A DNA stretch of 21,697 bases from positions 1-21,697 of the IMG/VR virus record IMGVR_UViG_3300025168_000785. One strand, written 5' to 3'. Within the stretch, counting starts at the first letter, position 1. Every line of letters starts with the position of its first letter. The DNA comes from a virus. The translations under genes were made by a program, and so were the position numbers. This document shows positions 14,983 through 19,282 of this stretch, piece by piece. Below the pieces are notes generated by a model, which saw only the letters and a list, made by a program, of their open reading frames with translations, was not told the DNA's origin and made no database searches.

Positions 14983-15013
14983 GGTTATCTCCTTCATGCC
15001 TTAGTGGATTGAA

Positions 15014-17410
15014 TTACGCATAGAAATACTCGCTCTGCCTGACGAGTTCGATGTCCAGCTCGCCCCGCTCTGGAGGCTCTGGCACTGTAACTTCTGTCGG
15101 CAAGTAGTGTCGGATCTCATGAAAGAAATCCTCCATAAGATTCCCGCTGAAGATTTCGATCACCGACTCCAATAGATTCGCCCGCATCATCGGCATGTCC
15201 GGGGCCAAGCACAGGTAGGCGTCGTGGATAGACGACTGAAACTCCATACCCTGGCTTGAGTTCTTAAGGACAGTCCGGTGACAGATGGCCGCATCAATTG
15301 AGTGGATCTGATTAGGAGCCACACCGTTACAAGCCCTACGCTTGCAAAGCTTTCCGGTGCCGCTGCGAATCTTATGCTGCCGGATGACATCACCGATCAC
15401 TGTCTTCACTGACTGGCTCTGCCACGTCTCGTAAGCCTGCTTGACTACAAAGCCCGAGGGAGTCGTCCACCTCAAGGGCACGTTGTTATCAATGCACAGC
15501 TTGGCTACCTCTCGATACCAAGACATAGCCTTCTGAGCTTCACCAACTACATCGCTGATTGAATCCCAGACCATCCCAGCCAAGAAGTGTGCAGGTCGGA
15601 AGGTCTCTTCCCAGCCGAAGGGGTTAACCCCTCCCCGCTTCTTTACTTCATCCAAGAACCACTCACGAACGTAGTCCCGGCAGGCCCATAGGGTGCCGGA
15701 GTAGGGCACGACCATGCAGCTTCGCTTCGTCGTGGCCCTGGTAATCCCAAAGGCCAGCCACTTGCGAGCCATGTCGCTCCCATCCTCCTCCAACCGCCTG
15801 ATAGTAGCACCCGCCACATCTTGATAAATGTCTTGAGGGCGGTCGGTCGGGATGACGTTGGTGGCCAAAGCCCCCACCGGATCACGCATCAACAGTGAGT
15901 ACAGCTGCAATCCATTACACGATCCGTCGATGGAGATAGGAAGCCGAGTAACAAACTCAGAGCCTTCCTTCATGAAGCCATCCCACTCGAAGCAGAAGGC
16001 GAGGAACAGCTCAGGCTCATCAGCCTTACCCCAGACCGATGTGGTGCCGTCTGGATCTTTAGCCACCGAGGCAATCATGTCCCGGTTGTTGTGGACCCAC
16101 TCCACCCGCTCGTCCAGCGTGCCCTTATCCTCACCGAAGACGTTGGCCCCGTGGATGGCAAGCCACCGCTCGCCGTCCCCCGTACCTATACGTTTCCCGT
16201 GGCCAGCGGCTAACAAACTGCGAGCGGTCTTCGAGCCTTGGGGCTGGAGGAAGTAGACCCGGCTGTAGTTCCGGGATCTGAAGTCCATGTACCAAGGGAA
16301 GTAGATAATCAGCAGCATGAACTTCCGAGCCATCCAGAATATCTTGGCCATCTGGAGACGCTTGGACTCGTTGCTCTTATTCTCTGCGTGGATTCGGGCA
16401 GCAGCCTTACGCCACTTACGCCTAGCGTCTTCGTTCTCTCCGATGTCGTGAGGCTTTGATGGGATCTTCTGGCCAACCGCCGAGGGCAGGTCGCCGATCT
16501 CAATCTCACTCTCCCAACAATAGACAAGAGTCTCCAAGACCTTGGCGTTGATACTCCAAGCTGCTCGCTGCAACTGGTTCACCGCTGCCATCGGTTCATA
16601 AAGATCAACAGCGTTGAGGAACTCCAAGTGATGACGGTCGTTTGTCTTGACCAGTGGGCGGGGGTGTACGTTCTCAGTCAGGTAGCCCCCGGTGTAGACA
16701 TCAGTCCAATCAGCGGGCCTCTCGACCATCGGGAGATACATGGGCGACAAGTCTTCGGCGTACTTGTGAGCCTCCTTCATCCAGGCTTGCAGCTCATCGG
16801 TCGCGTGGACGTAGGTCTCACTCTTGCCCAACATGCCCCGGCGGGTCGTGATGTCGATGATGCCTGTGGATACACGCATCAACTCGATCAACGTCATGCC
16901 GATCTTGAGTCGGATGTTCTTAGGCCACTTCGAGAACTGAAGCTCTATGAACTTCTCCGTGTTGCGGAGAAACCGACGCTTGTTCTCATAGCCAGGGATC
17001 TTCTTGACCTGATCCTTCTGTAGTTTCCACAGGTCTGGGTGCTGGTCCTTCATCTCCCGCCACTTGACCTCATCCTCCAGAACTCTGGACACTTTGAAGG
17101 ACGCTTTAGTCAGACGTTCGTGCATCGAGATTGAGTCGATAACTGTCCGGGCAGTAAGGGCCGCAACGATAGACGGGTCGAGCATGTCAATGTAGGGGTA
17201 ACAGCCATTACGGTTCCCGACCGGCTGCTTCTCTACCTGCTTCTTCCACTGCCTAATCTGTTCAGCGAGTAGGTCAACCGACTCCGTGAGCAATCGTTTG
17301 CCCAAGGTGTGCTGACTCTCCATCCCGCCCTCGGTCGTCCGCTGTACTTTCTTCCAGTACCGGTGACGGCCTAGTTCTTTCATCTCAGCTTCGAGGTCTG
17401 ATTGGCGCAT
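15014..17410 (-). CDS. Phage single-subunit DNA-dependent RNA polymerase (T7 gp1-like)
   Basis: The 798-residue product (T7 gp1 is 883) has motif A PISIDGSCNGLQLYSLLMRD (Asp495), motif B GITRATTKRSCMVVPYSGT (Lys562, Tyr570), the conserved NGVAPNQIHSIDAA (695-708) and motif C SSIHDAYLCLAP (Asp730), and closes with FYA, similar to the C-terminal foot of T7 enzyme. It transcribes the phage middle and late genes from phage promoters. In motif B the usual YG is YS, a mild deviation. It is separated from integrase by a terminator and about 85 nt of leader containing a hairpin. A clear Shine-Dalgarno is absent; AAGGACGAAACGAGAAC precedes the ATG. Confidence 0.97.
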   Translation of the reverse strand: MRQSDLEAEMKELGRHRYWKKVQRTTEGGMESQHTLGKRLLTESVDLLAEQIRQWKKQVEKQPVGNRNGCYPYIDMLDPSIVAALTARTVIDSISMHERLTKASFKVSRVLEDEVKWREMKDQHPDLWKLQKDQVKKIPGYENKRRFLRNTEKFIELQFSKWPKNIRLKIGMTLIELMRVSTGIIDITTRRGMLGKSETYVHATDELQAWMKEAHKYAEDLSPMYLPMVERPADWTDVYTGGYLTENVHPRPLVKTNDRHHLEFLNAVDLYEPMAAVNQLQRAAWSINAKVLETLVYCWESEIEIGDLPSAVGQKIPSKPHDIGENEDARRKWRKAAARIHAENKSNESKRLQMAKIFWMARKFMLLIIYFPWYMDFRSRNYSRVYFLQPQGSKTARSLLAAGHGKRIGTGDGERWLAIHGANVFGEDKGTLDERVEWVHNNRDMIASVAKDPDGTTSVWGKADEPELFLAFCFEWDGFMKEGSEFVTRLPISIDGSCNGLQLYSLLMRDPVGALATNVIPTDRPQDIYQDVAGATIRRLEEDGSDMARKWLAFGITRATTKRSCMVVPYSGTLWACRDYVREWFLDEVKKRGGVNPFGWEETFRPAHFLAGMVWDSISDVVGEAQKAMSWYREVAKLCIDNNVPLRWTTPSGFVVKQAYETWQSQSVKTVIGDVIRQHKIRSGTGKLCKRRACNGVAPNQIHSIDAAICHRTVLKNSSQGMEFQSSIHDAYLCLAPDMPMMRANLLESVIEIFSGNLMEDFFHEIRHYLPTEVTVPEPPERGELDIELVRQSEYFYA

Positions 17411-17429: not shown

Positions 17430-17453
17430 CTGTGGCCTAAGGTAACGCCACAG
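17430..17453 (-). other. Hairpin in RNA polymerase leader
   Basis: A 7-bp perfect inverted repeat (CTGTGGC and GCCACAG, 10-nt loop) lies 20 nt upstream of the RNA polymerase start. It has no T-tract, so it is unlikely to be a terminator. It may be an RNA-processing site or a binding site for a regulator of RNA polymerase expression; function is inferred only. Confidence 0.4.
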
Positions 17454-17467
17454 GAACTAAATCGGGC

Positions 17468-17492
17468 AGGTCCGTTGCCTGAGTGGATAGAT
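17468..17492. repeat. 25-nt direct repeat, copy 1
   Basis: The plus-strand core gttgcctgagtggat is identical in both copies; over 25 nt there are three mismatches with copy 2 at 17544-17568. The copies lie 76 nt apart and flank the terminator between tRNA-Leu and RNA polymerase. Candidate integrase arm-type sites or a repeated promoter element; I found no third copy in the window. Confidence 0.75.
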
Positions 17493-17497
17493 TATCT

Positions 17498-17529
17498 AAA
17501 AAGAAAACCCAAGGGGGTAAGCCCTTGGG
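17498..17529 (-). terminator. Intrinsic terminator between integrase/tRNA and RNA polymerase
   Basis: On the minus strand an 8-bp perfect stem (CCCAAGGG and CCCTTGGG, loop CTTACC) is followed by TTTTCTTTTT. It would stop transcripts coming from the regulator, integrase and tRNA before the RNA polymerase gene, so RNA polymerase needs its own promoter or antitermination. Confidence 0.85.
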
Positions 17530-17543
17530 AATCCTAAAGAGAA

Positions 17544-17568
17544 AGGTGTGTTGCCTGAGTGGATGGAT
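17544..17568. repeat. 25-nt direct repeat, copy 2
   Basis: Second copy of the repeat at 17468-17492 (22 of 25 positions equal). It lies between the terminator and the inverted repeat next to the tRNA, within 30 nt of the tRNA 3' end, a location typical of integrase arm sites. Confidence 0.75.
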
Positions 17569-17588
17569 CTTAAAAGGATTTTAAGTCC
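17565..17588. repeat. AT-rich inverted repeat beside the tRNA 3' end
   Basis: The segment has arms ggatcttaaaa and ttttaagtcc around a 3-nt centre: ten base pairs with one bulged base. It also shares the 10-mer attttaagtc with the anticodon stem-loop of the adjacent tRNA-Leu (about 17661-17671). It may form part of the integrase core or accessory region; this is inference. Confidence 0.5.
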
Positions 17589-17596
17589 AGTGCAAG

Positions 17597-17684
17597 TGGT
17601 GCGAGCGGCGGGACTCGAACCCGCAACCCATTGATAGGGGGCAGATTTTAAGTCTGCTGTGTATACCAATTCCACCACGCTCGC
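17597..17684 (-). tRNA. tRNA-Leu(UAA), complete with encoded CCA; candidate attachment site
   Basis: The 88-nt sequence folds as a class II tRNA: acceptor GCGAGCG with CGCTCGC, D-arm GTGGAATTGGTATACAC, anticodon stem GCAGA/TCTGC with loop CTTAAAA (anticodon UAA, codon UUA), a variable arm CCC...GGG, T-arm GCGGG-TTCGAGT-CCCGC, discriminator A and CCA. It resembles E. coli tRNA-Leu UAA closely in D- and T-arms. It lies 17 nt after the integrase stop with phage genes on both sides, so it is carried by the phage itself, not a host flank. It may be the attP core, a working tRNA, or both. Confidence 0.95.
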
Positions 17685-17701
17685 GTCCCCTTGCCACATA
17701 C

Positions 17702-18736
17702 TTATGCCACAACGTCTAACATAGGACTAGTCTGTCGGTTAGGTTCCAATGCAGCAATAGCGTTGACCAGATTATGAGGGGCAAGGTGAGCATACCGGAG
17801 CGTGATGTCCATAGTCTTATGGCCAGCCAGTTCCTTCACCGTCAGGATCGGGACACCACGCTGCACCAGGCGGGAGCAGAACGTGTGCCGAAGAGCGTGC
17901 ATCACTTCGTCCCCTGTAGCAGCCCACTCCATATGAAGCCTCAGGCGGTCCCACCAGTTCCGTAGGTGATGTTTCGTAGTCCAATCGAATGGACCCTTGG
18001 CCCCCCGGTCCATCGCTGTGAGAGCTTCCTGAGCCGCCTGAGTCAAAGGGACACCACGCGGACTATCGGACTTGGTGTCCGACAGGATCGCAACGTCTCC
18101 CTGGATGTCACGCCACTGAAGACCACGGGTCTCACTGACCCTGAGGCCAGTGTCGGCTTGGAACCTGACCCAGTGGGCCATGTTGGGATTACCAAGGTGA
18201 TGATAGTAGGCCACCATCCGGGCAAGCTCATCGTCAGTGAACCACCGGAGACGGTTGACACTCTCCCGCATCCTCTGGATCTTGGGCTTAGTGTCGATGA
18301 CCCCGATGTCCTTCGCTACCGTCAGGCACTTCGACAACGCAGCCAGCTTTCGGTTGATGGTGGCGTTGGAGTTACCACGATCCTTAAGCCCTAGGATCAC
18401 TCGGTCCACGGTGAACAGGTCGATGTCCTTCATCGCTGTCCCCATGCCGACCAATCCTCCAACTATCTCGGCGTTGCGTTTCAATCCGTCGCCAGATTTC
18501 GAGTCGGCCCAGTACCGGGTAGCGACGTACTCGATCATATGGCCAAGGGTCTTGGGGCGTTCCGCCGTGCCCCGCTCGGTGTTCCCCATTTCAGGAGTAC
18601 GCCCGGCGATCACGTCCGCCTTGGCCTGAGATTCCCAGACCTCAGCGTCTTGGAATGTGGCAAACTGCCTGCGCCATCGATGGCCCTTGTGACTAACGGT
18701 GGCCTGAAAGCCACGTTCCCGTGCATTGATTGTCAT
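17702..18736 (-). CDS. int: Tyrosine-recombinase integrase
   Basis: The 344-residue product has an N-terminal arm-binding-like region (GFQATVSHKGHRWRRQFATF), a SAM-like core-binding segment (about 63-150) and a catalytic domain. Visible catalytic residues are Arg199 in TGLRVSETRGLQW, Lys222 in SDTKSDSPRG, His280-x-x-Arg283 in MHALRHTFCSRL, His306 in ELAGHKTMDITL and the nucleophile Tyr315 in RYAHL. All are present, so it should be active in site-specific insertion and excision. The ATG overlaps the regulator stop as ATGA. The tRNA-Leu follows at once, the likely recombination target. Confidence 0.95.
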   Translation of the reverse strand: MTINARERGFQATVSHKGHRWRRQFATFQDAEVWESQAKADVIAGRTPEMGNTERGTAERPKTLGHMIEYVATRYWADSKSGDGLKRNAEIVGGLVGMGTAMKDIDLFTVDRVILGLKDRGNSNATINRKLAALSKCLTVAKDIGVIDTKPKIQRMRESVNRLRWFTDDELARMVAYYHHLGNPNMAHWVRFQADTGLRVSETRGLQWRDIQGDVAILSDTKSDSPRGVPLTQAAQEALTAMDRGAKGPFDWTTKHHLRNWWDRLRLHMEWAATGDEVMHALRHTFCSRLVQRGVPILTVKELAGHKTMDITLRYAHLAPHNLVNAIAALEPNRQTSPMLDVVA

Positions 18737-19050
18737 GAGAGTTTCTCCAAAGTCTCTTTTAGCCTTCGGCCAGATGCCGTCAGGCTCACCAGTTTTCTAC
18801 GTCGGTCCATGATATCCTCCTCGGCGGAGACTAATCGAAGCCCCGGCCGACGGTGGCGGCTCCAAGCCCCCAATGAGGCCACGTTTCTACTGACTGAGGA
18901 TTGAGCTAGGCCACTACGCCTACCCAAATCAGTCATCGAGATCGGGTCCGGGTCCATCTCGGCTACGAGTAGATACACCACCATGGTCTGAGCCTGGATC
19001 TCCGGGTCCAGTTGTCTGAATACTTCCAGACAGGCGGCTAAGTTTTTCAT
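18733..19050 (-). CDS. MarR-like winged-helix transcriptional regulator
   Basis: The 105-residue product has LEVFRQLDPEIQAQTMVVYL, then the HTH ISMTDLGRRSGLAQSSVSRN, a wing with RPGLRLVSAEEDIMDRRRKL and a closing helix VSLTASGRRLKETLEKL. This is the MarR fold: recognition helix SSVSRNVASLG and a D-x-R-R-R-K wing. ATG 19050 (MKNLAAC) is preferred because it matches the domain start and follows a four-codon frame ending ATGA. A longer start at 19104 would have its Shine-Dalgarno touching the ATG. It is translationally coupled to integrase. It may be the lysogeny regulator, but target sites are unproven. Confidence 0.85.
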   Translation of the reverse strand: MKNLAACLEVFRQLDPEIQAQTMVVYLLVAEMDPDPISMTDLGRRSGLAQSSVSRNVASLGAWSRHRRPGLRLVSAEEDIMDRRRKLVSLTASGRRLKETLEKLS

Positions 19051-19107
19051 TCGTTGTCCATATGACGTTGAGCCTCCAGCAACGCAGGAAATACTCGCCA
19101 TCATCCT

Positions 19108-19241: not shown

Positions 19242-19282
19242 AAAAGGCCCCGGCCAACTAGGGGAGCCTAGCCGACCGGGGC
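19242..19282 (-). terminator. Strong intrinsic terminator ending the right-arm operon
   Basis: Positions 19282-19247 on the minus strand form a 16-bp stem (three G-U pairs, no mismatch) with loop CTCC, followed by CTTTT. It lies 14 nt after the stop of the 28-residue peptide gene and before the regulator promoters, separating the early small-gene operon from the lysogeny module. Confidence 0.9.

Follow-up and report, generated by a model that had tools for sequence, protein, structure and literature searches.

tRNA-dependent lysogeny has been proven in mycobacteriophages (Fionnbharth, Cluster L, Gaia), in which mutants show that the phage tRNA is required, and Guerrero-Bustamante and Hatfull asked how common it is beyond actinobacteriophages (PMC10865867). 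In Rhizobium, vTRX32-1 combines a 12-bp core with its own full tRNA-Leu, which replaces the split host gene (PMC8631192), and the Fonsibacter prophage uv-Fonsiphage-EPL has an 11-bp core in the host tRNA-Leu, its own tRNA-Leu being stated to restore the lost function (PMC6811365). The use of a short core together with a replacement tRNA-Leu in T7-like phages is already published for these two cases (PMC8631192, PMC6811365), both of which concern tRNA-Leu(UAG). For LUZ100 the authors considered the tRNA to be a relic of imprecise excision (PMC10134795). In the literature searched, outside of which lie most subscription papers including the original pelagiphage integration paper, we found no report linking the UAA group to replacement-tRNA lysogeny.

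Gene order and the tRNA-Leu(UAA) region

The stretch of DNA analysed here in full (21,697 nucleotides or 21.7 kb, hereafter the window) is a viral fragment from a T7-like phage, with its genes read in reverse. Pfam matches were obtained to RNA_pol, SBB_T7, Helic-prim_T7_N, DNA_pol_A, Head-tail_con, Gp10A-like capsid and Phage_nozzle, and the products assigned by Pfam comprise an RNA polymerase, a single-strand binding protein, a RusA-type nuclease, a primase-helicase, a DNA polymerase, a connector, a capsid protein and a nozzle protein. With its single-subunit RNA polymerase, T7-type replication and structural genes and an integrase adjoining the polymerase, the window has the make-up of Autographiviridae that carry an integrase. 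On the minus strand, the MarR-like gene is followed by the integrase, tRNA-Leu(UAA), a spacer of 186 nt and the RNA polymerase gene (15014-17410, -; T7-type, Pfam RNA_pol E=3e-84). The integrase (17702-18736, -; 344 aa) is a phage tyrosine integrase, as in tRNA-dependent lysogeny (Pfam PF00589, Phage_integrase, E=2e-19), and is 87, 81 and 52% identical to those of three IMG/VR relatives and 37% identical to that of LUZ100, the closest named integrase. The MarR-like regulator directly upstream of it (18733-19104, -; Pfam MarR_2 E=8.8e-5, a match under the curated cut-off) takes the position of the MarR gene in LUZ100, HTVC200P and RHEph01. Further upstream of the MarR-like gene, a strong terminator-like hairpin with 16 pairs is found at 19247-19282 (-), which would set the MarR-integrase-tRNA unit apart from the early genes.

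The tRNA-Leu(UAA) at 17597-17684 (-) is the sole tRNA detected by ARAGORN in the window. It has an encoded 3' CCA and every stem is complete, in agreement with the earlier note on this DNA, which had recognised a complete tRNA-Leu(UAA) beside the integrase. Being complete, it differs from the partial tRNA copy of a P-SSP7-type attP, in which a long core of 40 bp or more would be identical to the host; in P-SSP7 the tRNA-Leu piece is reportedly about 42 bp long. The same tRNA-Leu is present at the same place in all six phages of the window family, that is the window and five IMG/VR contigs (L001/L004, L002, L005, L025, L026), as well as in the MAG contig L022, which together form our conservation set, and in the close-family alignment 23 nt of its anticodon arm are invariant, a length reached by no other invariant block in this region. 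A full tRNA-Leu had been thought notable for a phage; it is in fact not unusual, as other phages carry one near the integrase gene, including LUZ100, HTVC200P, HTVC119P, S28C10, YIMV22061, Pasto, Lo5R7ANS and the RHEph phages. The most plausible view of the tRNA is that it replaces a disrupted host tRNA gene, the core described below pointing to the host target.

The 186-nt spacer contains a copy of the anticodon loop and two direct repeats with an intrinsic terminator between them. The terminator (CCCAAGGG-loop-CCCTTGGG-TTTTCTTTTT, 17498-17529, -; 17508-17529 in a narrower delimitation) lies between the proposed core and the RNA polymerase gene and was not among the features listed previously. 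A 46-nt stretch folds at -19.1 kcal/mol (z=-3.0), and the hairpin is conserved in the relatives. The paired direct repeats of 25 nt each had been noticed before and are indeed present at 17544-17568 (copy 1, -; ATCCATCCACTCAGGCAACACACCT) and 17468-17492 (copy 2, -; ATCTATCCACTCAGGCAACGGACCT), 88% identical and 76 nt apart; copy 2, the better conserved of the two, is kept in the relatives and copy 1 decays in L005, L002, L025 and L026. Their common motif AATCCACTnnGGCA occurs on the minus strand at 14995-15011, 17474-17490 and 17550-17566, in all cases intergenic and in sense direction, and is also found in the relatives of the window and in LUZ100, there at the same three places around the RNA polymerase gene. 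Because the third copy (CAATCCACTAAGGCATG, 14995-15011, -) is located between the RNA polymerase gene and ssb, outside any attP, a regulatory role is likelier than the arm sites proposed earlier; the repeats may be operators, phage-specific promoters or arm sites, with a regulatory role favoured. We did not adopt the view that they are promoters of the phage RNA polymerase, given that the LUZ100 motif lies outside the mapped promoters phi1 and phi2 (the window phage may differ).

Two inverted repeats complete the region. The AT-rich inverted repeat CTTAAAAGGATTTTAAG (17569-17585) echoes part of the anticodon loop, as had been described, and overlaps the proposed core, with one arm running into GGACTTAAAATCC; the other arm occurs in the window only and is missing from every relative, and with conservation in one arm only, the repeat was rejected as a functional element. 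Directly upstream of the RNA polymerase gene, sequence and alignment reveal an inverted repeat TGTGGC-N10-GCCACA (17431-17452), of which TGTGGC is kept in 6/6 aligned phages and the second arm GCCACA only in the window, L001 and L002. TGTGGC motifs are found at both ends of the attP region (17431-17452 and 17693-17711), and similar GTGnCA repeats occur at the same ends in BB8, YIMV22061, Pasto and the Rhizobium phages; these motifs are candidate sites for MarR or candidate arm sites of the integrase.

A short second copy of the anticodon arm

Eleven nucleotides of the anticodon arm, GACTTAAAATC, occur in two exact copies in the window and no further one: inside the tRNA at 17644-17654 (-), where the earlier note had placed the crossover, and at 17577-17587 in the spacer. 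The spacer copy appears in the alignment of six phages as ACTTAAAATC. Apart from the tRNA and the bases directly 3' of it, no invariant run in the spacer is longer, and the copy begins 12 nt into the spacer between tRNA and RNA polymerase gene in 7/7 phages, L022 included. In L022 the anticodon arm of the tRNA reads GGGCTTAAAACCC, yet the short copy remains AGACTTAAAATCT, indicating that the short copy is no by-product of the tRNA. The attP core is therefore likely the short copy GGACTTAAAATCC at 17576-17588 (-), outside the tRNA, which matches the anticodon loops of tRNA-Leu(UAA), is conserved in the relatives and is identical to the core deduced from a Shinella prophage remnant (see below).

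It could be argued that the short copy is instead part of a promoter (TTGCAC-17-TAAGAT) or a regulator site upstream of the RNA polymerase gene, resembling the anticodon loop by chance. Promoter or operator elements are expected at this place and a loose TTG...TAnnnT layout surrounds the copy; however, none of the sites in a scan for sigma-70-like promoters passed, and crossover took place at this same core in Shinella and at its UAG form in TRX32-1 (PMC8631192). We consider this reading very improbable.

Across integrase phages, the short core is paired with the tRNA. A core matching the anticodon of the carried tRNA (UAA or UAG) is located near the integrase in all 17 examined phages that carry a full tRNA-Leu, anticodon and core agreeing in every phage compared, and in none of the seven phages without this tRNA (BB8, L028, CRP-804, CRP-403, CRP-118, S-CBP1 and HTVC048P), bar a weak match in CRP-804 that consists of a bare CTTAAAA with the flanking bases absent. 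In LUZ100, HTVC200P, HTVC119P and S28C10 the tRNA-Leu(UAA) is antisense and lies across the integrase from its position in the window, and the short copy is still found downstream of the integrase (AACAGACTTAAAAGG, AACAGACTTAAAATCC, AACAGACTTAAAATCT and AACGGACTTAAAATAT, respectively). The tRNA-Leu(UAG) phages Lo5R7ANS, RHEph01 and RHEph21 carry a short copy of the UAG loop, CAGATTTAGGTT, in RHEph21 in the form TAGATTTAGGTT. Considering that either 7-nt motif has a chance of roughly 0.5 to 20% to occur in any one spacer, the weight rests on the joint pattern, the longer common flanks and the fixed place. Moreover, the phages are related, so that the counts of 17/17 and 0/7 are not independent, and on the integrase tree the label (tRNA/core) clusters weakly; for the Microcystis phage Mae-JY02, one of the 17, no RNA polymerase was recognised in the fetched stretch, and its branch in this tree is very long.

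Some of these phages offer additional observations. L028 and L022 have sister integrases, L022 with tRNA and core and L028 without both, i.e., a linked loss or gain. Downstream of their integrases, S-CBP1 (L051, 4015-4255) and HTVC048P (L052, 4377-4637) hold, in place of a full tRNA gene, partial tRNA-Leu sequence and an antisense stretch resembling tRNA-Cys, consistent with an alternative long-core strategy in related phages.

The pairing also bears on the question whether the tRNA only aids lytic translation or evades tRNA-cutting defences, the short core being the attP of a phage that integrates rarely or transiently. In favour of this explanation, integration at tRNA-Leu does not lead to stable lysogeny in T7-like cyanophages (PMC8776855) and LUZ100 yielded no lysogen (PMC10134795), but the carried tRNA is always the isoacceptor of the target (UAA with a UAA core, UAG with a UAG core), and the phages without a core, including L028 as the sister of L022, are also without the tRNA. 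We consider this explanation hardly probable.

A Shinella prophage remnant and the proposed integration module

Shinella sp. PSBB067 (NZ_CP069303.1, a record of 4.6 Mb designated as a plasmid) contains a T7-like remnant with a complete tRNA-Leu(UAA), a relative of the window phage with an integrase 58% identical to that of Pasto and 32% to that of the window, and an RNA polymerase 35% identical to that of the window. At one junction, the 5' half of the host tRNA-Leu(UAA) runs into GACTTAAAATCCCC, directly before the RNA polymerase gene, and at the other junction, 8.86 kb off, CACAGGACTTAAAATC leads into the 3' half of the host tRNA with its CCA. The joined flanks form a perfect tRNA-Leu(UAA) of 85 nt; neither junction alone gives a tRNA. 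The junctions have a common core of 11 bp, GACTTAAAATC, the host tRNA is split in its anticodon loop, and the implied attP contains GGACTTAAAATCC, identical to window positions 17576-17588. Among the 51 tRNAs detected by covariance model on the 4.6-Mb replicon, the other Leu anticodons are CAA, UAG, CAG and GAG, and the only intact tRNA-Leu(UAA) found there is the prophage's own, which further argues against a tRNA serving lytic growth only.

The remnant is informative for another proposal, namely that the phage tRNA itself is the attP, with a crossover in the anticodon loop and a long common 3' half that leaves an intact tRNA at both junctions, as the earlier note had suggested. A complete tRNA adjoins the integrase, no invariant block of the region is longer than its anticodon arm in the close family, and partial tRNA-Leu copies are the attP of the T7-like cyanophages P-SSP7 and S-TIP37 (PMC8776855). 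Although the Shinella prophage tRNA also holds GACTTAAAATC, recombination took place at the short core outside it; the host tRNA is split at both junctions, neither of which rebuilds a tRNA, and the full phage tRNA sits apart; the published accounts of Rhizobium TRX32-1 (PMC8631192) and Fonsibacter (PMC6811365) describe the same situation. Furthermore, the tRNA is antisense across the integrase in LUZ100, HTVC200P, HTVC119P, S28C10 and RHEph01/21 with the core staying downstream of the integrase, and in L022 the tRNA arm diverges from the conserved core. A core within the tRNA is thus unlikely, while the broader claim, that the integrase attachment region targets a gene for a leucine tRNA, holds.

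Taken together, the anatomy, its conservation, the pairing of tRNA and core across phages and a related remnant with both junctions make it probable that a temperate T7-like phage has its integration module in this region and uses replacement-tRNA ('tRNA-dependent') lysogeny; for the window phage, the support comes from anatomy and relatives and not from a junction of its own, and from these we infer its integration, its host, the expression of the tRNA in the lysogen and the insulating role of the terminator. The integrase would recombine the short attP core (GACTTAAAATC with flanks, 17576-17588) with the anticodon loop of the host tRNA-Leu(UAA), and the insertion would break the host gene in this loop, because the common core of only about 11-13 bp is too short for rebuilding it. 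The complete phage tRNA-Leu(UAA), located between integrase and core, would take over and the cell would survive. In the lysogen, the 5' half of the host tRNA and a first core would precede the RNA polymerase gene, and at the far end MarR, integrase and phage tRNA, in this order, would be followed by the second core and the 3' half of the host tRNA. The terminator between core and RNA polymerase gene would then keep transcription that starts at the host tRNA promoter from running into the phage RNA polymerase gene, and the phage tRNA, lying on the integrase strand, could be expressed with the MarR-integrase operon. Against replacement-tRNA lysogeny it has to be considered that in the close family the anticodon arm, with 23 invariant nt, surpasses the short core in conservation, so that by this alignment alone the tRNA copy may be the recombining site, and that the phage tRNA holds the 11-bp core, which makes self-insertion possible, whereas the Rhizobium phage tRNA is without its motif. 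As T7-like cyanophages integrate without stable lysogeny (PMC8776855), the outcome here may not be a lysogen.

Searching for the host, a strict pattern of the tRNA 3' half gave no match in 84,980 species genomes, and the host may be outside this set; neither this pattern search nor an integrase scan of genome contigs revealed a host or prophage of the close family of the window phage. Integrase alignment against genome contigs gave a single relative (40%) on a marine archaeal MAG contig, probably a free phage that was mis-binned. L022 (PBMS01000033.1), with T7-like integrase, tRNA and RNA polymerase in one unbroken block, is filed under a marine Euryarchaeota MAG and is probably a mis-binned free bacteriophage; genomes related to this archaeal MAG provided no useful host. 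The LUZ100 module matched only the host tRNA-Leu in E. coli genomes, and integrase matches in S. meliloti pSymB, Pseudochrobactrum and Pseudorhizobium were dismissed as not being tRNA-Leu prophages of the replacement-tRNA kind.

Comparison with known integration systems

The presence of this anatomy in the window and at least a dozen T7-like phages suggests that tRNA-dependent lysogeny is common there, and provides a testable reason for the single leucine tRNA of integrase-bearing T7-like phages: lysogen survival, not codon supply. It predicts that the LUZ100 tRNA is functional and that a phage stripped of its tRNA no longer forms stable lysogens. More tentatively, and as a possibility we would not yet call probable, replacement-tRNA lysogeny at leucine tRNAs may be ancestral to, or often regained in, temperate T7-like phages (with alpha-, beta- and gammaproteobacterial hosts, LUZ100 included), with the choice of tRNA (UAA or UAG) coupled to the core and the terminator before the RNA polymerase gene also insulating the phage from the host tRNA promoter that it captures.

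Among the described systems, the mycobacteriophages resemble the module proposed for the window in their short core (8-17 bp), which lies within a tRNA gene of the host and does not restore it, and in their cognate phage tRNA, yet they are phages of Actinobacteria unrelated to T7, use mostly tRNA-Lys(TTT) and are experimentally proven (PMC10865867). As proposed for the window, the T7-like cyanophages P-SSP7 and S-TIP37 combine an integrase with an attP aimed at tRNA-Leu, but this attP is an exact partial tRNA copy and stable lysogens are not formed (PMC8776855). A short core, in the window a proposed one, and a phage-borne tRNA-Leu are common to the window, the Fonsibacter prophage and the HTVC019P-type pelagiphages HTVC011P and HTVC025P, which differ in targeting tRNA-Leu(TAG), in their SAR11 hosts and in their lower GC (PMC6811365). 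The Rhizobium phages vTRX32-1, RHEph01 and RHEph21 (Autographiviridae, Paadamvirus; PMC8631192) are T7-like and have the order MarR-integrase-RNA polymerase (MarR is annotated in RHEph01 and RHEph21) and, like the core proposed for the window, a short core, the 12-bp CAGATTTAGGTT, downstream of the integrase; in contrast to the window, their tRNA is tRNA-Leu(UAG), lies antisense between MarR and integrase and is without the 12-bp motif, and their integrases are about 32% identical to that of the window. The Pseudomonas phage LUZ100 (PMC10134795) has MarR, integrase, terminator and the core AACAGACTTAAAAGG before the RNA polymerase gene and a tRNA-Leu(UAA), its repeat motif CTATCCACT flanks the terminator as in the window and its mapped terminator T4 is at the same place as the window terminator, whereas its tRNA is antisense and upstream of the integrase. 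Overall, the window phage seems to be a clear further example of the known replacement-tRNA trick.
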